A stretch of 64,000 bases of DNA from assembly GCA_020853775.1 (NCBI GenBank), contig JADYYH010000021.1:1-64000 (forward strand), given 5' to 3'. Source of the stretch: Nitrospira sp. (GTDB lineage Bacteria; Nitrospirota; Nitrospiria; Nitrospirales; Nitrospiraceae). Each line of letters starts with the position of its first letter. The stretch's first letter is position 1. Positions 17,290 through 28,810 of this stretch are shown here, piece after piece. Position numbers and translations under genes: made by a program. Under the pieces are notes generated by a model that saw nothing but the letters and a program-made list of their open reading frames with translations, had not been told where the DNA came from and did no database searches.

Positions 17290-18063
17290 ATGATGGATCG
17301 TTCTGCGTATCTCGCGCGCATCGGATATGACGGTCGGGTGAGTCCGTCGGTCGAGACCTTGCACGCCGTACATCGCGCGCATGTCCTGACCGTGCCGTTC
17401 GAAAATCTGGATATTCACCTCGGGCGGCCGATCTCGCTGGACCCCGCCGACCTGTTTCGGAAGATCGTCGTGGATCGACGCGGCGGCTACTGTTTCGAAC
17501 TCAACGGCCTGTTCGCGTTGTTGTTGGAAGACCTCGGATTTGCCGTGACCAGGCTGGCTGCCCGGGTGGGGTCCGAGACGGAAGGCGTGCGGCCGCGAAG
17601 CCATCAATTGCTACTGGTTCAACTTGGCGAAGCCGCGTGGATCGCTGACGTTGGGTTCGGAGGTCATGGATTACTTGAACCTTTGAGAATGGCGGATGGG
17701 GAGGTGGCGCAGCAGGGGACCGATCGGTTCCGGCTCATCGCGCAGGGGGAAGGAGACTATCTGCTGCAATGCGAGAGTGAGCGGGTGTGGACGAATCTCT
17801 ATTCCTTCGCGCTGGATCCCTGGCTGCCCATCGACTATGCCTTCGCCAATTATTACCACTCCCATTCGCCGGATTCTCTCTTCATGCAGCGACGGATTTG
17901 TACTATACCGACGCCGGAGGGGAGAACGACGCTTCTTGATAACCTGCTGAAGGTCCGGGGGCGAGAGGGGATGCAGGAACTTCAGGTAACGAGTGAAGAT
18001 GAGGGGCAGCAGCTGCTCCAGAAGCACTTCGGCCTCACCATTAACGATCACTTGATGTTTTGA
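17290..18063 (+). CDS. nat: Arylamine N-acetyltransferase
   Basis: The 257-residue protein has the Cys-His-Asp triad of NAT enzymes: Cys68 in RRGGYCFELN, His105 in RSHQLLLV and Asp120 in IADVGFGG. It transfers acetyl groups from acetyl-CoA to arylamines and hydrazines. The C-terminal domain is present and the length is close to the usual 260-280. Two ATG codons in a row (17290 and 17293) follow a GAGAGG site. The WYL regulator downstream is on the same strand. Confidence 0.93.
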   Translation: MMDRSAYLARIGYDGRVSPSVETLHAVHRAHVLTVPFENLDIHLGRPISLDPADLFRKIVVDRRGGYCFELNGLFALLLEDLGFAVTRLAARVGSETEGVRPRSHQLLLVQLGEAAWIADVGFGGHGLLEPLRMADGEVAQQGTDRFRLIAQGEGDYLLQCESERVWTNLYSFALDPWLPIDYAFANYYHSHSPDSLFMQRRICTIPTPEGRTTLLDNLLKVRGREGMQELQVTSEDEGQQLLQKHFGLTINDHLMF

Positions 18064-18119
18064 GGGTTGGGCGTTGAGTCGCGTGCGGCGGGGAGATGTG
18101 CGGAAGAAAGGGGAGGCGC

Positions 18120-19115
18120 GTGAAGGCACGATTAGGTCGTCGGCCCAAAGCGTATAGTCAGGCAGGGCGGCTTGCCAGAATGATCCGGGCGCTTTCGAGC
18201 CGATCGATGTCCATCAACGATTTGTCCGGCGAGTTCGGGGTCTCACGGCGGCAGATCTATCGCGACCTCGATCGAATTCAGGAAGAAGGCCATCCCCTGG
18301 AGCAGTCTGATGGAGGTGGAGAAAAGTCGTGGCAATTGCCATTGGGCTACAAGGGGCTGCCGCCGATTACCGTCACTCCCTACGAACTCATGGCGCTCCA
18401 TCTTGCCAAAGGGCACGTCGCGTATCTGACAGGCACTCCGTTCGTGGAGAATTTCGACAGTCTCATTGCGAAAGTGCAGGCCGGCTTGCCCCAGAAGGTG
18501 GCGAATCATCTCGCCCGCATCAACGACGTGTTTGTACCCCGCCAGGCTCCTGTTCGTGACTATTCACGTCACGGGGAAGTCTTGGCCAAGCTGGAGAAGG
18601 CGTTGCTGCTCCAACGGACCGTGACGCTCCATCACGTCAGGCCGGATTATGAGGAATCGGCCGAGCACGGTGTGGATCCTTATCGGTTGGTGTTTCATCA
18701 GGGTGGTCTGTATGTGCTGGGCTTTTCGCATCGGGCCCAGGCTCTTCGCCTGTTTGCCGCCGAACGCATTGTTGGGATTGATGTGTCTGACCAGAGGTTC
18801 GAGATCCCAACAGACTTGAAGCTTGAGGCGGGCTATGCGCACCTCTTTGGGCTGATCGACGAACCGGCGGAAACGGTACGGATCCGTTTCAGGGCCGAGG
18901 TGGCGTATCTCATCAAGGAGCGTCGCTGGCATCCCAGCCAAACGCATACGGTCGAAAAAGATGGATCCATTGTCGTCACATTGTCCACCGGCGGCACAGA
19001 CGAATTGGCGACATGGATACTGTCCTGGGGGCCTGACGCGGTCGTGATCGAACCTCCGGTATTGGTTGAGCTTGTGAGGTTTCGCCTGGATCAAGCGCTG
19101 CGACAGTATTCCTAG
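18120..19115 (+). CDS. HTH/WYL-domain transcriptional regulator
   Basis: The product (331 residues from GTG 18120) has a DeoR-like helix-turn-helix at about residues 25-65 (ISRSM-type helix, then FGVSRRQIYRDLDRIQEEG) and a WYL domain in the middle (VDPYRLVFHQGGLYVLGF), followed by a C-terminal WCX extension. WYL regulators often sense nucleic acid ligands and are common near defence genes. The GTG has an AAGGGGAGG site; an ATG at 18096 is an alternative. The gene stands at the left edge of the variable island. Confidence 0.88.
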   Translation: MKARLGRRPKAYSQAGRLARMIRALSSRSMSINDLSGEFGVSRRQIYRDLDRIQEEGHPLEQSDGGGEKSWQLPLGYKGLPPITVTPYELMALHLAKGHVAYLTGTPFVENFDSLIAKVQAGLPQKVANHLARINDVFVPRQAPVRDYSRHGEVLAKLEKALLLQRTVTLHHVRPDYEESAEHGVDPYRLVFHQGGLYVLGFSHRAQALRLFAAERIVGIDVSDQRFEIPTDLKLEAGYAHLFGLIDEPAETVRIRFRAEVAYLIKERRWHPSQTHTVEKDGSIVVTLSTGGTDELATWILSWGPDAVVIEPPVLVELVRFRLDQALRQYS

Positions 19116-19410
19116 TCCTTCCAACGATCATTCAACGCCGGATGCCCGCAGTCTCGGGCTGCCACGTCCTCCCAGTCCAAAAAATGCCAGGTGGGCTCCT
19201 TGCTCTTCTGGCTCGCGCAATGCGGCCTGAGATTGTCCCCGTCGGACGTGTGCAGTTGGAAAGCCGGTAGCCCACCTATGACATTTTCTGTCACGGCCTC
19301 GTGAGAGGCTTCAGATCTGTTCTCGACCTATCCCTATAAGAACGCCGCCGTATCAACGGACGCGGTTGAATCACGGTGGGGGAATCAACGCTAAGACGCG
19401 GAGGCTCATC
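19116..19410. other. Intergenic region, left edge of the variable island
   Basis: The stretch contains a 60-codon minus-strand frame (19112-19294) that overlaps the end of the regulator gene and has no clear ribosome site. I see no RNA gene or strong hairpin. A sigma70 promoter for 19411 was not found. Confidence 0.35.
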
Positions 19411-19650
19411 ATGGAATGGGTGGTGTTGTTCATGTTGCAGGTTCTGGTTCCGGCCGATTCTCTGATGCAGCTCACGCTGAACAAATCTCTGGCGCAGGTC
19501 ATTCAAGAGCAGATCAGTTGCCGGAAAGAGTTCAGCGAGGCCAGGCAGGAATTCGAGCAGGCGAATCAGATCGACGACCCATTTCAGCGCCTGAACGCCA
19601 TCGACAGGTTACGGAGGACTGTGCTACTACGCTGCGGCGTGAGGGCCTGA
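19411..19650 (+). CDS. Small unrecognised protein with hydrophobic N terminus
   Basis: The 79-residue product starts at ATG 19411 after GCGGAGG. Residues 1-15 are hydrophobic (EWVVLFMLQVLV), and the rest is a charged helix with coiled-coil character (CRKEFSEARQEFEQANQ). It may be anchored to the membrane by its N terminus. No family is recognised. Confidence 0.5.
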   Translation: MEWVVLFMLQVLVPADSLMQLTLNKSLAQVIQEQISCRKEFSEARQEFEQANQIDDPFQRLNAIDRLRRTVLLRCGVRA

Positions 19651-20404: not shown

Positions 20405-20615
20405 TCTGAGCCAGGAAGGCGACAGTTTCATAAAGGAAGTATTGGAAAGCAAAACGAAAGAGCTGAATGGAAAAAAGGGGTCGGGAGTCTTTTCTGCGCA
20501 TGGCGGAGTTGCAGCCGCTGGCGGGGCTGACGGGGCTTGTCGAATTGACTGCCGAAAATACGAACGTCAAAGACGCCACTGTCTTGCAAGGCCTAACCAA
20601 CCTACACGACGTTAG
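20391..20615 (+). pseudogene. Truncated frame overlapping the nuclease-like gene
   Basis: A frame starts at ATG 20391, overlapping the last 14 bases of the nuclease-like gene, as in translationally coupled pairs. About 27 plausible residues (MDHYDLSQEGDSFIKEVLES...) follow, and then the frame runs into the repeat at 20471, after which it becomes Arg/Ala/Gly-rich noise. I read it as the 5' stump of a partner gene cut by the repeat. Confidence 0.4.
20471..20493 (+). repeat. Island repeat, copy 1
   Basis: The core GGGGTCGGGAGTCTTTT is preceded by an A-run. The same core occurs at 21881-21904 and, with one change, at 23084-23110, all in the same orientation. The A-run and T-run ends make the unit an imperfect palindrome. 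Confidence 0.7.
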
Positions 20616-20713: not shown

Positions 20714-20892
20714 TAACCCGGACTATTCATGAATACCTGCTCCGTCGTCCGGTTCTCTCGTCCGGCGAGGATTTTCTCGTTCGGCCTCCTCGACGGACTG
20801 CACGTACGCCTTCGGCGGCCTCACGTGCGAGAAGCCCCGGCGGACTTCGGCCTCGAACGCCTCGCGACGGTATTCATGAATAATCCGGGCTA
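20714..20892. mobile_element. MITE-like element with 24-base terminal inverted repeats
   Basis: The two ends, 20714-20737 and 20869-20892, are inverted copies that match at 22 of 24 positions. Each arm contains the perfect palindrome TATTCATGAATA (20724-20735 and 20871-20882) flanked outside by CCCGGA and inside by CC. The 179-base interior has no transposase. The element therefore looks like a miniature inverted-repeat element moved by an enzyme encoded elsewhere. A minus-strand frame crosses it, but without coding signs I trust. Confidence 0.65.
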
Positions 20893-21256: not shown

Positions 21257-21478
21257 ATGCCCTCCGAGACGCACCTGACCCCGAAGGAAAAGCAAAGCCA
21301 GTACCGGAGCCGGTTGCGCCGCAAGGGTTTGCGGCCGGTGCAGATCTGGGTTCCGGACACCCGGGCCGCCGGATTTGCGGCTGAATGCCGCCGCCAGGCG
21401 CGCCTCGCGGCACGGTCCGCGCAGGAGAAGCCCGTTCTTGATTTCATCTCGGAGATTGCCGATTGGGACAACGGATGA
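21257..21478 (+). CDS. MazE-type antitoxin (DUF3018 family)
   Basis: The 73-residue protein starts at ATG 21257 after GGAAAGGGG. The stretch YRSRLRRKGLRPVQIWVPDT is the ribbon-helix-like DNA-binding start typical of the DUF3018 antitoxin family, and the acidic C-terminal end (FISEIADWDNG) should wrap the toxin. Its stop overlaps the toxin start (ATGA at 21475-21478), the usual layout of such pairs. It should neutralise the toxin and repress the operon. Confidence 0.87.
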   Translation: MPSETHLTPKEKQSQYRSRLRRKGLRPVQIWVPDTRAAGFAAECRRQARLAARSAQEKPVLDFISEIADWDNG

Positions 21479-21801
21479 AACGCGGCGATCTTGTCGCCGT
21501 CGCCGCCAAGGGCCACTATAGTGGAAAACCGCGGCCCGCCCTTGTCCTGCAATCCGATCTCTTCTCTGCGCTTGGAAGCGTCACGATTTGCCTCCTGACG
21601 ACCGAGCGTCTTGATGCGCCCCTTTTCCGCCTTTCCGTTGAGCCCTCGCCTGAAAATGGCCTCAAGCAGCCCTCGCAAATTATGATCGATAAGATCGTGA
21701 CCGTTCCCCATGACGCGATTGGCGCTCGCCTCGGTTCGCTTGATCACGAGGTGATGGTCCGTGTCGACCGCTCCCTGGCCGTGTTTCTCGGGATCGTCTG
21801 A
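21475..21801 (+). CDS. MazF/PemK-type toxin (endoribonuclease)
   Basis: The 108-residue protein has the PemK/MazF fold landmarks: MKRGDLVAV at the start, GKPRPALVLQSD, and the strand PSQIMIDKIVTVPHDAIGARLG. These toxins cut mRNA at short sequence motifs when the antitoxin is lost. The start ATG overlaps the antitoxin stop. Repeat copy 2 follows 80 bases downstream. Confidence 0.9.
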   Translation: MKRGDLVAVAAKGHYSGKPRPALVLQSDLFSALGSVTICLLTTERLDAPLFRLSVEPSPENGLKQPSQIMIDKIVTVPHDAIGARLGSLDHEVMVRVDRSLAVFLGIV

Positions 21802-21880: not shown

Positions 21881-21904
21881 AAGAAAGGGGTCGGGAGTCT
21901 TTTC
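21881..21904 (+). repeat. Island repeat, copy 2
   Basis: The core GGGGTCGGGAGTCTTTT is identical to copy 1 and in the same orientation. It lies between the toxin gene and the 3' end of the broken ATPase gene. Confidence 0.7.
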
Positions 21905-21911
21905 TTGCCTG

Positions 21912-22967
21912 TCATGGAGAAGTGGTTACCGAACGAATCTCGGCCTTGGGATATTGATGGGCAAACGCTTTGAGGTTGACCAGGTCTACGTCATCGGCTG
22001 ACCATTTACACTCCAGCGCGAGCGGCGACTGCCCCTGGCGAGCCAGCACGAGATCGATTTCATGACCCCGCTTGTCTCTCCAGTACCCGATGCGTCTGGT
22101 TTGTAAGTGAGCTTGAAGTTCATTGAGAACCATATGCTCCCACAACAAGCCGAGGTCCTCCTGCCGTGGGCTGGTCCAGCCGCGGTAATAACACACGAAT
22201 CCCGTATCGAAGGCGTAAACCTTCGGCGCCGCCACGATCTCAGTCGCTCGATGGGTGGAGAAGGGCCGCAAGACATGAATGAGGTACGTGCTTTCCAGAA
22301 CGGCGAGATAATTGATGGTCTGGCGGCTGACCTCGCAGGCCCTCGTGAATCGAGTGGTCTCGAACAACCCTCCGCTTTGGGCGAACAGCAATTCGGCAAG
22401 CCGTTCGAAGGAATGTCGCCGTTCCAACCGAAACAGGGTTTGAATGTCTTTCGCCCAGTAGGCATCCATCCATTCCTGGAACGCCTGCTCTGGTATCGGC
22501 GGCCAGGCGAAAAAGGGAGGAAGCCCTCCATGCAGCAATCGGTGGCGAAGATCGGGCTTCCCGAACGCCGTAAGATCTTCCAACATCATCGGTGTCAGCC
22601 AGACCTCGGTTTTCCGTCCGGCCAGGGTGTCGCGGAACTTACTGGACGCTCCGAGGGGCGAGGAGCCGGTCGCAATCACTTTCGTGTCACGATAGTGATC
22701 GGCGGTGATCTTGAGTAGTTCGGACGGATTCGGAAGTCGGTGGATTTCATCCAGAATCAGCCGACGCCCGCGGTGCTGGTTGAGAAACGCTTCGGGATCT
22801 TCAACCTCCCGCCGGGTACGCGGGAGTTTGCAGTCAAAATACTCGACGTCATCGAGCGATTAGCAGAGCAGTGTTTTGCCGGCCCGTCTCACTCCCGATA
22901 GCCAGACCACTGACCGGTCGTTCCAGGCTTCCTCCAAGCGGTGTTTCCACCATGTTCGATGCACCAT
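21912..22967 (-). pseudogene. AAA ATPase with DUF4143 domain, interrupted by one stop codon
   Basis: From ATG 22967 one frame runs 351 codons to the stop at 21912, broken only by TAA at 22860-22862 (codon 36). The stop falls just after the Walker A motif GVRRAGKT (residues 25-32). Downstream of it the Walker B stretch RLILDEIHRL, the ATPase core and the DUF4143 nuclease-like domain (EIDLVLARQGQSPLALECKW) are intact. A single C-to-T change of a Gln codon (CAA) would explain the stop. Members of this family occur in mobile regions and their biology is poorly known. Two island repeats flank the gene. Confidence 0.8.
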
Positions 22968-23083: not shown

Positions 23084-23110
23084 AAAAGAAGGAGGTCGGG
23101 AGTCTTTTTT
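23084..23110 (+). repeat. Island repeat, copy 3
   Basis: The unit reads GGAGGTCGGGAGTCTTTTTT after a short A-run and differs from copies 1 and 2 by one base in the core. The orientation is the same. Confidence 0.65.
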
Positions 23111-23275
23111 GTCGGCTTCACGCTGTTCCGTGAAGAATAAATAAGTACTTTGGCCCCGTACCAAGCATTACTCCACTTCTCTGCAGATCCTCTCATTCCG
23201 TTTCCGTCCGTGACCTTCTCTGGCACACCTCTATAGTACGCTCCCCTCGTTCATCCAACATGAAGGAGGGAAACC

Positions 23276-24562
23276 ATGTTCACCAGACGCACCTTGTTCA
23301 AACTCTTGGCGGCGGTTGGAGTGGGCTCGCTTTGGCCGACTCAGGGGCAAGCTGAAGAGGCCAGCCCAGCCACCCCAGGCCGCCGCCCATCGCATATATC
23401 GTACGACACTTCTTTGGATTTTCCGGCCACGATCAGTGACTCGTCATCGGCCCTCTCCGCCGTCGAACAGTGGGAAAACCTGCTGGACGATCTGGACGCG
23501 GTCGAATTGATCGGCCGCTACAGCCGGCTCACGCCGGTTGGTGATGGATCGCGCGACTACCGGGGACCGTGTCCATTCTGTCGTCAGGGCCCCGATTCGC
23601 TGATGGTCGGTAGCCGTGACGATTCCTATGTCTGCACCAACTGTCTCGCATGCGGCCACGCCCTGGATTTCTACATCAGGATGGAACGGTTGAGTCTGGA
23701 AGAGGCGATTCCCCGGCTGACCGGATTGCTGGTCTCCGGGGCTTTGACGGGGAAGCGCCTGAGGCTGGAGCGAATGGGTGTTGCGCTTGAGGAAACGCGC
23801 CGGTTGGCCTGCGAAGCGCTGCAGCATGGCTCTGCTGGACATGATACCCGTGAGTGGATGAAACGGGAAGGTGTGACTCAAGAGACAAGCGAACAGTTTT
23901 CACTTGGCTTCTTGTCTAAGGACGTCCGACAAGCACTCATCCCGCACCTTCGCGCTAACGGATTCGACCAAGCCGAGCTGGAGGAGGCCGGTATGACGGG
24001 ATGGCTTGCGCGCCATGGCGATGAATCAGATATGAGTGTGCTGATCTCGGTAAGGGATGTGGATGGGAGTTGCCGGGGGTTCTGTGAACAAGCCATGCAC
24101 GAGAATGCTGAGGTGATGTGGACCTTCTATTCCTTGCCGTACGGGTTCACGCTGCTTTCTCCCCATCGCGCTGATCGGTTGGTTTTATCTGCGAGGAACG
24201 GGCGAACGTCATCTGCATCGGTGATCTTGGCTGAACGGCCTTGGGATGTTGTCCTGCTTGCTGAGGCCGGAATCGAAGACGCCGTGTATGTGGCACCACT
24301 TGACCCGGCAGAATACCGCAGGCGTCTCAATCTGTATTTGCAGCGAGGGCACACTGCGATCTGGCCCATACGCCAGGCCGACATCACGGTGGAGTTTCTG
24401 CGTGGTCTGACTGACGGCTTTGGCCGGTCCGCCGGGCAGCTACATTTCGCGATCTTGCCTCCCGGGCTGAGGCTCCCTGAGGTGATCCGGCAGGAAGGGA
24501 TCGAGTCTGTCCGTGCGCGACTGGCTCGGGCGAAACCATTGAGGGACTTGCTGGGGGCCTGA
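23276..24562 (+). CDS. DnaG-like (CHC2 zinc finger) protein with a Tat-like export signal
   Basis: The 428-residue protein begins TRRTLFKLLAAVGVGSLW, close to a twin-arginine signal, ending near QGQAEEA. Residues about 70-150 form a CHC2-type primase zinc finger with four Cys ligands (99, 102, 123, 126) in place of the usual Cys-His-Cys-Cys, then DFYIRMERLSLEEAIPRL. Residues about 165-290 resemble the DnaG N-terminal core (FSLGFLSKDVRQALIPHL, VLISVRDVDGSCRGF). The Toprim Glu and DxD metal motifs of active primases are not evident. The start has GAAGGAGG. A DNA-synthesis fold behind an export signal is hard to explain; function is unknown. Confidence 0.75.
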   Translation: MFTRRTLFKLLAAVGVGSLWPTQGQAEEASPATPGRRPSHISYDTSLDFPATISDSSSALSAVEQWENLLDDLDAVELIGRYSRLTPVGDGSRDYRGPCPFCRQGPDSLMVGSRDDSYVCTNCLACGHALDFYIRMERLSLEEAIPRLTGLLVSGALTGKRLRLERMGVALEETRRLACEALQHGSAGHDTREWMKREGVTQETSEQFSLGFLSKDVRQALIPHLRANGFDQAELEEAGMTGWLARHGDESDMSVLISVRDVDGSCRGFCEQAMHENAEVMWTFYSLPYGFTLLSPHRADRLVLSARNGRTSSASVILAERPWDVVLLAEAGIEDAVYVAPLDPAEYRRRLNLYLQRGHTAIWPIRQADITVEFLRGLTDGFGRSAGQLHFAILPPGLRLPEVIRQEGIESVRARLARAKPLRDLLGA

Positions 24563-27790: not shown

Positions 27791-28810
27791 TTATTTCCCG
27801 CGAAAGGCTTCCCGCGCTTCCTTCTCGATCTCGTGCCCCAGGTCCGTATACCGGGGTGAAAAGTGAAACACGACCAGCTCGCGCACGCCGGCGTGCTTCG
27901 CCAGGATGCCGGCCTGCCTGGCCGTGAGATGGTACCGGTCCCGCGCCTTGTCCGCATCCCGGTCCAGATAGGGGGCCTCACAGTAAAAGATGTCGGCGCC
28001 CCGCGCAAGTGCCACGATCTTGCGTTCGTTGTCCGCATCGTAGCGCGCATCCACGACATAGGCGATTTTCTGGCCGCGCGTGATGGTGACGAATCGTTCG
28101 CGGATCTCGCCCAGGAGAAACTCGCGTTCTTCCTTGTGATGCTCATGGTACAGCGTGGCGATGAATCGAAAGTCATCCGGCTTGCCTTGCCAGAAATAGT
28201 GCTTCACCTCTTTCAACCAATAACCCACTGGAAGTCCGGCTGCGTGTAATCGCTCCTTGTTGAAGTTCATATGAAACTGTTCCTGCAGTGCATAGGCCAA
28301 TGAAGGGATGCGGTGGTTGAGTGCCGACGCCTGCACGGTGAACATCGGGTCACGGAGTACCGTAAAGGCGCCGTCGTCCGTGCAGCCGCTTAGGGGAGAA
28401 CTGGGTTCATCGTGACGCTGAAAGCCGTCCGTGGCAAGGAAGGTCGCGGTCTTGATGCCCTCAGCCTGGAACTCGTGCACGGTGATGGTGAGCGGGTATC
28501 CGTCCACCAGGTTCCACGTGTAGCCGTGAAGCTTTCCCTCGACATTGGCGATGAGGCCGGACGGCCCGTGGAGTCGCAGAGTTTTGCCGCGGCCGAGGGC
28601 GACGCGCAGCAGGGTATCGAATCCGATGAAGTGATCCATATGGGTGTGGGAGATGAAGATGTCGCTGGCACGCAACAGGCGGGTCGGTCCAAGGGCATCA
28701 TTGTGGCCGAGGTCGAACAAGAGGGCGCGTTTCGACCATCGAACTTCGACGAACAGACCCGGATCACCGAAGACGTCGTTGACGAGGAAGCTGGAGAAGG
28801 AGGGGTTCAT
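27791..28810 (-). CDS. Ribonuclease Z-like MBL-fold protein
   Basis: The 339-residue protein shows the metal motif HTHMDH in IFISHTHMDHFIGFD and the late RNase Z pattern HLTARQAGILAKHAGVRELVVFHFSPRY. Other ligands are seen in the NHRIPSLAY stretch and the VVDARYDAD stretch. RNase Z removes the 3' trailer of pre-tRNAs. Length is close to the family norm. Some relatives hydrolyse other substrates, so the tRNA role is likely but not proven. Confidence 0.87.
   Translation of the reverse strand: MNPSFSSFLVNDVFGDPGLFVEVRWSKRALLFDLGHNDALGPTRLLRASDIFISHTHMDHFIGFDTLLRVALGRGKTLRLHGPSGLIANVEGKLHGYTWNLVDGYPLTITVHEFQAEGIKTATFLATDGFQRHDEPSSPLSGCTDDGAFTVLRDPMFTVQASALNHRIPSLAYALQEQFHMNFNKERLHAAGLPVGYWLKEVKHYFWQGKPDDFRFIATLYHEHHKEEREFLLGEIRERFVTITRGQKIAYVVDARYDADNERKIVALARGADIFYCEAPYLDRDADKARDRYHLTARQAGILAKHAGVRELVVFHFSPRYTDLGHEIEKEAREAFRGK

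Follow-up and report, generated by a model that had tools for sequence, protein, structure and literature searches.

A leader-bearing DnaG-like protein family of Nitrospirales, very probably without catalytic activity, linked to a WYL regulator and a conserved operator-promoter

Primases, like their inactive derivatives, are known as replication proteins of the cytoplasm. In a 64,000-nucleotide stretch of a Nitrospira genome (assembly GCA_020853775.1, contig JADYYH010000021.1, positions 1 to 64,000, here called the window), a DnaG-like reading frame begins with what resembles a twin-arginine (Tat) export signal. The question raised by this locus is whether the frame encodes an exported and probably inactive zinc protein, or a cytoplasmic protein hidden by a misread start, the two possibilities left by a sequence-only reading, and which genes and signals accompany it. 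The frame, named c0, and its parts are as follows.

23276..24562, + strand: c0 (A copy), probable pseudo-primase with a Tat-type leader, 428 aa (open reading frame, domain search, alignment, structure model)
23264..23269, + strand: ribosome-binding site AGGAGG of c0 (sequence)
23276..23353, + strand: residues 1-26, twin-arginine leader MFTRRTLFKLLAAVGVGSLWPTQGQA (conserved RR, dN/dS)
23354..23455, + strand: residues 27-60, unconserved linker (pLDDT <50, dN/dS 0.45-1.0)
23570..23644, + strand: Cys4 zinc ribbon, C99 to C123 (four Cys invariant in 18 members; C-H-C-C in DnaG)
24206..24505, + strand: degenerate Toprim domain, residues ~311-410 (profile, structure and alignment comparison)

The c0 frame starts with an ATG, has an in-frame stop four codons upstream, and encodes the leader, a fast-evolving linker, a DnaG-type zinc ribbon and the DnaG catalytic-core fold. 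Pfam models detect the CHC2 zinc finger (37.7 bits, above cut-off) and DNAG_N (25.5 bits, slightly below the cut-off of 26), while the TIGR01391 dnaG model reaches 65.5 bits against a cut-off of 283.6. The primase likeness, which an empty profile search would have undone, is borne out by profile matches to solved DnaG down to 2.8e-30.

Relatives were collected by a profile search of 396 Nitrospirota genomes. Full-length members score 418-614 bits and match from residue 1 of the leader; DnaG scores at most 139 bits on the same profile, with a match mostly beginning after residue 40. By combining profile and nearest-relative searches, 18 full-length copies from 13 genomes were compared; they come from the window's genus, from further genera in its family and from a second family of the order Nitrospirales, with identities down to ~25%. 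Many Nitrospira carry two copies, which form an A clade, containing the copy of the window, and a B clade; broken copies are found in G012, G026, G217 and G333, and as extra copies in G018 and G023. A one-sequence contig scan, able to reveal close relatives only, returned named records from Nitrospira and Nitrospiraceae. In a tree with the DnaG proteins of the phylum, the c0 family is split from them by a fully supported branch, although the tree is arbitrarily rooted and contains some long branches. A recent copying of the host DnaG is not supported by this separation. A phage or plasmid gene was also considered and rejected, as no c0 relative was found in viral contigs and only true DnaG was found in plasmids. 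The data support well the view of c0 as a separate family, known from the order Nitrospirales, the sensitivity of the search being limited outside Nitrospirota. Literature searches for exported DnaG-like proteins, and for the combinations Tat and primase-like, Tat with DnaG and WYL, and Nitrospira and WYL, returned nothing on this family. As a separate observation, the host assembly (G000) contains two full-size DnaG frames of 641 and 633 aa (G000:C111:37536-38066 and G000:C34:1529-2059), perhaps a sign of its reported 4.6% contamination.

The Tat-like leader noticed earlier on this inactive DnaG-like zinc and core protein is a property of the family: the proposed search for relatives with the same leader found an MxxRR start, an RRx[FLM][FIL]-type motif and 11-26 uncharged residues in 20/20 members examined. 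Uncharged h-regions extend up to 26 residues in several members; in G007_A and G016_A the h-region contains a charged Arg, a point against export. In an alignment of 16 rows, M1, R4, R5 and G15 are the sole invariant positions before residue 60, with K9 and P21 nearly invariant. In the leader, dN/dS mostly lies between 0.2 and 0.4 (one pair reaches 0.72, over few sites), compared with 0.45-1.0 for the linker and 0.16-0.31 for the core. A misread start is ruled out by three observations: all relatives, which share 25-80% identity, have the same start and leader; purifying selection acts on the leader, the adjoining linker being near neutral; and a predicted -10 box is located ~35 bp upstream of the same ATG. 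The ribosome site before this ATG is mostly good among family members. The misread start allowed for earlier can thus be set aside, no relative having been seen to start later and lack the leader, and the observation of a primase-like protein with an export-type leader holds as real, not as an annotation artefact.

The best library match of the leaders is TAT_signal (PF10518) or TIGR01409, yet under cut-off: PF10518 matches 3/16 members and TIGR01409 2/16, with a best E of ~0.009 and 0.083 for the window copy. The host genome contains two TatC genes above cut-off. A Tat signal peptide appears the best reading of the leader, and Tat would fit better than Sec because a Cys4 ribbon would have to take up its metal before meeting oxidising conditions. 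Export or membrane insertion is quite probable, and the leader suggests actual export as likely. Known Tat substrates (PF10518, TIGR01409) share with c0 the RR motif, the uncharged stretch and a linker before the folded part; no primase-like Tat substrate was found in the literature searched.

The zinc ligands of c0 are C99, C102, C120 and C123. Within the zinc finger as first described, C99 and C102 were correctly placed, and Cys123 with Cys126 were not the second pair, since alignment gives C120 and C123 as ligands and Cys126 is unconserved. The Cys-His-Cys-Cys site of CHC2 is absent from the family, which has Cys4 in 18/18 members, versus Cys-His-Cys-Cys in 18/18 DnaG of the phylum in the same alignment. 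An AlphaFold2 model built from 16 relatives (mean pLDDT 74, residues 1-60 <50) was compared with solved DnaG domains, giving Z 11.1 over 95 residues for the zinc domain (1d0q) and Z 21.0 with rmsd 3.2 over 250 residues for the catalytic core (3b39). In the model, the Toprim domain, once hinted to be missing, is present and folded as Toprim, with its acids degraded; structure prediction, suggested as a check, found the fold, and alignment the replacement of its catalytic acids.

All 18 aligned DnaG of the phylum keep E265, D269, D309, D311, D345, D347, R221, K229 and K241 (E. coli numbering). c0 retains E320 and D324, corresponding to E265 and D269; D309, D311, D345 and D347 are replaced by R366, A368, R399 and P401, and the DNA-contacting basic residues R221, K229 and K241 by Q272, V280 and H297. 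In the B clade and in G361 the first acid of the DxD pair is kept and the second lost. c0 ends where the core ends, so that the helicase-binding C-terminal domain is absent; the DnaG frames of its own genome reach 633-641 aa. Conservation of the family-specific positions E64, E67, D71, D74, E77, W323 and R301 points to re-use rather than drift. An active primase was rejected because of the catalytic residues lost relative to the 18 DnaG, and c0 is very probably, judging from these replacements, a catalytically dead pseudo-primase. It falls outside the DnaG primases, each of four defining features tested having been found lacking. In summary of the comparison with DnaG (TIGR01391; PDB 3b39, 1dd9, 2au3, 1d0q), c0 shares the order and fold of zinc ribbon and core, Toprim included, and differs by its Tat-type leader, Cys4 site and separate clade, and by lacking catalytic acids, basic groove residues and the C-terminal domain. 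The chances that it binds nucleic acid may be taken as evenly balanced, the loss of the R221, K229 and K241 equivalents in the window copy being a point against.

The search for conserved neighbors revealed a regulator, a small partner gene and a shared promoter element.

18096..19115, + strand: c1, HTH-WYL-WCX transcriptional regulator, 339 aa (Pfam HTH_11, WYL and WCX above cut-off; constant neighbor of c0)
19278..19294, + strand: putative operator relic ATGACATTTTCTGTCAC of a missing B copy, the -10 position now being GAGGCT (pattern match)
19411..19650, + strand: c8, 79-aa protein with a hydrophobic N-terminus and invariant C37 and C75 (alignment)
23210..23226, + strand: predicted palindromic operator GTGACCTTCTCTGGCAC, its first base 66 bp before that of the ATG (upstream alignment, genome scans)
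23237..23242, + strand: -10-like box TACGCT, at a conserved offset from the operator (25/28 sites have TAnnnT there)

c1 lies upstream of c0, on the same strand, in every locus with a full-length copy, and is found beside c0 also in the remote genera (G037, G040, G068, G277, G361). Within the genus it occurs in exactly the 10/29 genomes which have c0 or its remnants; c1 without c0 was seen in G036, a genome 70% complete. In its WYL domain, compared for the arginines that bind ssDNA, the R and ER of RxFxxER are conserved, and the Arg between them, present in a solved DriD-like chain, is absent; the closest solved chains found include PafC. c8 is present in most c0 loci, usually behind c0. In the window the B copy is missing between c1 and c8, and the A copy is located 3.6 kb further on; a tblastn search for a coding remnant of the B copy in the window gave nothing convincing, leaving the operator relic as its only trace.

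The palindrome surfaced by aligning the regions upstream of A copies; it precedes copies of both clades as well as c15, a small cargo gene. The operator-promoter consensus GTGAC-N7-GTCAC-N10-TAnnnT precedes every full-length copy, with one arm mismatch in two of them. TAnnnT is found at one fixed offset in 25/28 sites (sense-strand rows), versus a background frequency of 0.5% for any one position. Three sites lack it, and two of these are relics, at 19278 in the window and in G016, each preceding c8 where the B copy has been lost. All exact matches to the palindrome in 26 whole genomes (17/17) fall within these loci, the host genome contains two matches with at most one mismatch, both at this locus, and the reversed pattern gave two matches in all genomes summed. 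A relaxed promoter pattern, run on 30 genomes, detected the element before c0 in G037, G040, G068, G217, G277 and G361. The spacing between TGTC and TAnnnT in the mycobacterial RecA-NDp motif may be similar. Six further matches to the relaxed pattern lie away from c0 loci, and may reflect other WYL regulons or chance:

G361:C121:13947, off-locus pattern match
G333:C43:11471, off-locus pattern match
G022:C7:41145, off-locus pattern match
G003:C94:74, off-locus pattern match
G004:C1:3092819, off-locus pattern match
G217:C13:1885, off-locus pattern match

c15 encodes an acidic protein of 67-86 aa (YIYTNWRGKxF...) with no Pfam match, often has its own operator copy, and recurs in loci L030, L031, L032, L033, L037, L038 and L084. 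In G026, c1 is far from a broken c0; sites occur behind c1 and ahead of both c8-c15 and an AAA cargo gene, so the site travels with c1. Regulation by c1 through the operator is considered very likely on these grounds, activation rather than repression being moderately probable.

Known WYL regulators offer a close parallel. SiwR is a homodimeric WYL activator which recognizes a 19-bp imperfect palindrome between -35 and -10, and controls adjacent targets upon genotoxic stress (PMC10693628). c1 shares its HTH-WYL-WCX domains with SiwR, PafBC and DriD, and its predicted site resembles that of SiwR, both being palindromes that lie ahead of the -10 of a neighboring target gene (PMC10693628). It differs from both in other respects, as SiwR controls genes of the DinB superfamily and the heterodimeric PafBC recognizes a non-palindromic site (PMC6789036). 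The linkage of every full-length copy to a WYL regulator, and the conserved operator-promoter, are the new elements reported here; these two, together with c8 and the diverse defence-candidate cargo, had escaped the sequence-only reading.

This cargo is contained in a variable island, delimited as follows.

17290..18063, + strand: left island boundary, arylamine N-acetyltransferase gene (domain search, locus comparison)
21463..21801, + strand: cargo, PemK/MazF-type toxin gene
21912..22679, - strand: cargo, open reading frame with a DUF4143 domain
27791..28810, - strand: right island boundary, conserved gene c3, 339 aa, metallo-beta-lactamase fold by eye

The arylamine N-acetyltransferase gene and c3 are 9.7 kb apart in the window. 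In G011 and G004, which have no c0, both boundary genes or their remains are ~460 bp apart, and in G001, G009, G022 and G024 the gap contains different cargo and no operator. The genes beside c1-c0 are variable, and candidate defence families of PADLOC were matched in nine or ten genomes: M15A/B in G013, G015, G018 and G361; S02 in G023 and, more weakly, in G040 and G016; HEC-05/GmrSD in G007 and G026; an IetA-like AAA gene in G026 and G333. A Cas4-like DUF2779 frame lies beside c1 in G036, and similar ones near c0 in G068 and G217. In G361, G026 and G040, c1, or c1 together with c0, is located elsewhere in the genome and still has defence-candidate neighbors. Compared with defence-protein models, c0 itself gave a single weak match, to RT_UG29 (E 0.004), while its neighbors match candidates. 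These families are candidate defence systems, as judged by similarity, and their variety agrees with the earlier suggestion of a variable island, possibly a defence module. The toxin gene and the repeats noticed beside c0 are likewise real. The latter include a 25-nt sequence, AAAAAAGGGGTCGGGAGTCTTTTCT, present in three copies in the island (20471-20495, 21881-21905, 23086-23110), the third ~100 bp before the c0 operator. Its core occurs at 11 genomic places, several of them clustered on another contig, and it is possibly a small mobile repeat. A 24-nt inverted repeat (20714-20737 and 20869-20892, 92% complementary, 131 nt between the arms) is perhaps a miniature element. An independent Tat-type leader, MPSRRSFLQRMGLGVGALG, was observed on a 478-aa protein of the same hotspot, with and without c0:

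L029 4929-6365, 478-aa protein with Tat-type leader
L032 14456-15892, 478-aa protein with Tat-type leader
L034 4328-5764, 478-aa protein with Tat-type leader
L038 12541-13977, 478-aa protein with Tat-type leader
L107 2219-3655, 478-aa protein with Tat-type leader

The family, the dead site, the conservation of the leader and the linkage between regulator and operator are well supported by computation. These elements may be combined in a favored but tentative account, given somewhat less than an even chance as a whole, of a WYL-controlled, DNA-stress-inducible, Tat-exported protein with a dead primase fold, binding nucleic acid in defence. c0 would be made on demand and probably not constitutively. 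c1, a regulator of the SiwR/PafBC kind, would probably bind the palindrome just upstream of the -10 box and switch on the pseudo-primase, the second copy and some cargo genes, when its WYL domain senses single-stranded DNA or another mark of DNA damage or invasion. Single-stranded DNA is suggested as the signal by analogy with PafBC, which it activates through the WYL domains (PMC11804915). c0 would fold and take up zinc in the cytoplasm, and then be exported by Tat, so that zinc ribbon and primase core end outside the cytoplasmic membrane, tethered or free, perhaps acting together with the two-cysteine protein c8. At the envelope it would most likely serve to bind nucleic acid that is foreign or is entering the cell, and it would form the constant part of an island with changing defence-like genes. 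Tat export requires proton motive force; in a variant of this account, infection would collapse the membrane potential, and the precursor, retained inside the cell, could act there. A defence role of the c0 module has a probability just short of even, while the specific picture of an envelope interceptor or sensor of entering DNA, induced by the WYL regulator and common to exchangeable defence modules, must be regarded as doubtful. Further points speak against the account: a protein outside the membrane has no obvious route to signal c1, and the hotspot carries other cargo in species without c0. The module is moreover dispensable, since several copies are broken or lost.

Other explanations have to be weighed against this account. 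That c0 is an ordinary artefact, with a wrong start or a decaying, functionless DnaG copy, would agree with the broken copies in G012, G026, G217 and G333, but is hardly credible in view of the low dN/dS of the core, of a single clade apart from DnaG, and of the conserved promoter and start. The leader might also be no export signal, c0 remaining on the cytoplasmic side, membrane-attached or soluble, and acting on DNA or on the regulator. The Tat models below cut-off, the cytoplasmic location of the partner regulator and a four-cysteine ribbon, at home in the cytoplasm, favor this idea; the invariance of the RR pair, when the following 35 residues are free to vary, the long uncharged h-regions of several members, and the hydrophobic start and two invariant cysteines of the conserved c8 make it improbable.

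If c0 is exported, its zinc-bound primase fold could have been re-used, under stress induction, for an envelope function unrelated to nucleic acids, such as scaffold, metal or redox, the defence-like genes being mere co-guests. The loss of the basic groove residues of DnaG, the new conserved positions, such as E64 and W323, and the unrelated cargo of the hotspot in species without c0 all fit such a function. It is nevertheless held to be fairly unlikely, because regulator or pair keep defence-candidate neighbors outside the hotspot in G361, G026 and G040, and the literature ties this class of regulators to DNA damage and defence. The nature of c1 itself may be questioned, as it could be a repressor of the BrxR/CapW kind, relieved on infection, and not an activator of the SiwR/PafBC type. 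BrxR, a WYL regulator of defence islands, represses via inverted repeats (PMC9122601), and the c1 site overlaps the -35 region, where it would block RNA polymerase. SiwR-type activators, however, have the same HTH-WYL-WCX order and likewise a palindrome set at a constant distance ahead of the -10, and PafC is among the closest solved chains found, which leaves repression somewhat unlikely. The islands of BrxR and CapW (PMC9122601, PMC9122588) do resemble the present one in the association of a WYL regulator with variable defence genes; they differ in operator and regulator, and in that the constant partner of c1 is a leader-bearing pseudo-primase and defence is here putative.

Should the export leader work as predicted in the tentative account of an exported, WYL-controlled pseudo-primase, a nucleic-acid enzyme fold would be placed beyond the cytoplasm, at the site of DNA entry. 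For Nitrospira, a group of central importance in nitrification, the operator provides a WYL regulon that is compact and open to testing, and the module, together with its promoter, may serve as a search handle for islands of variable, mostly uncharacterised defence candidates.
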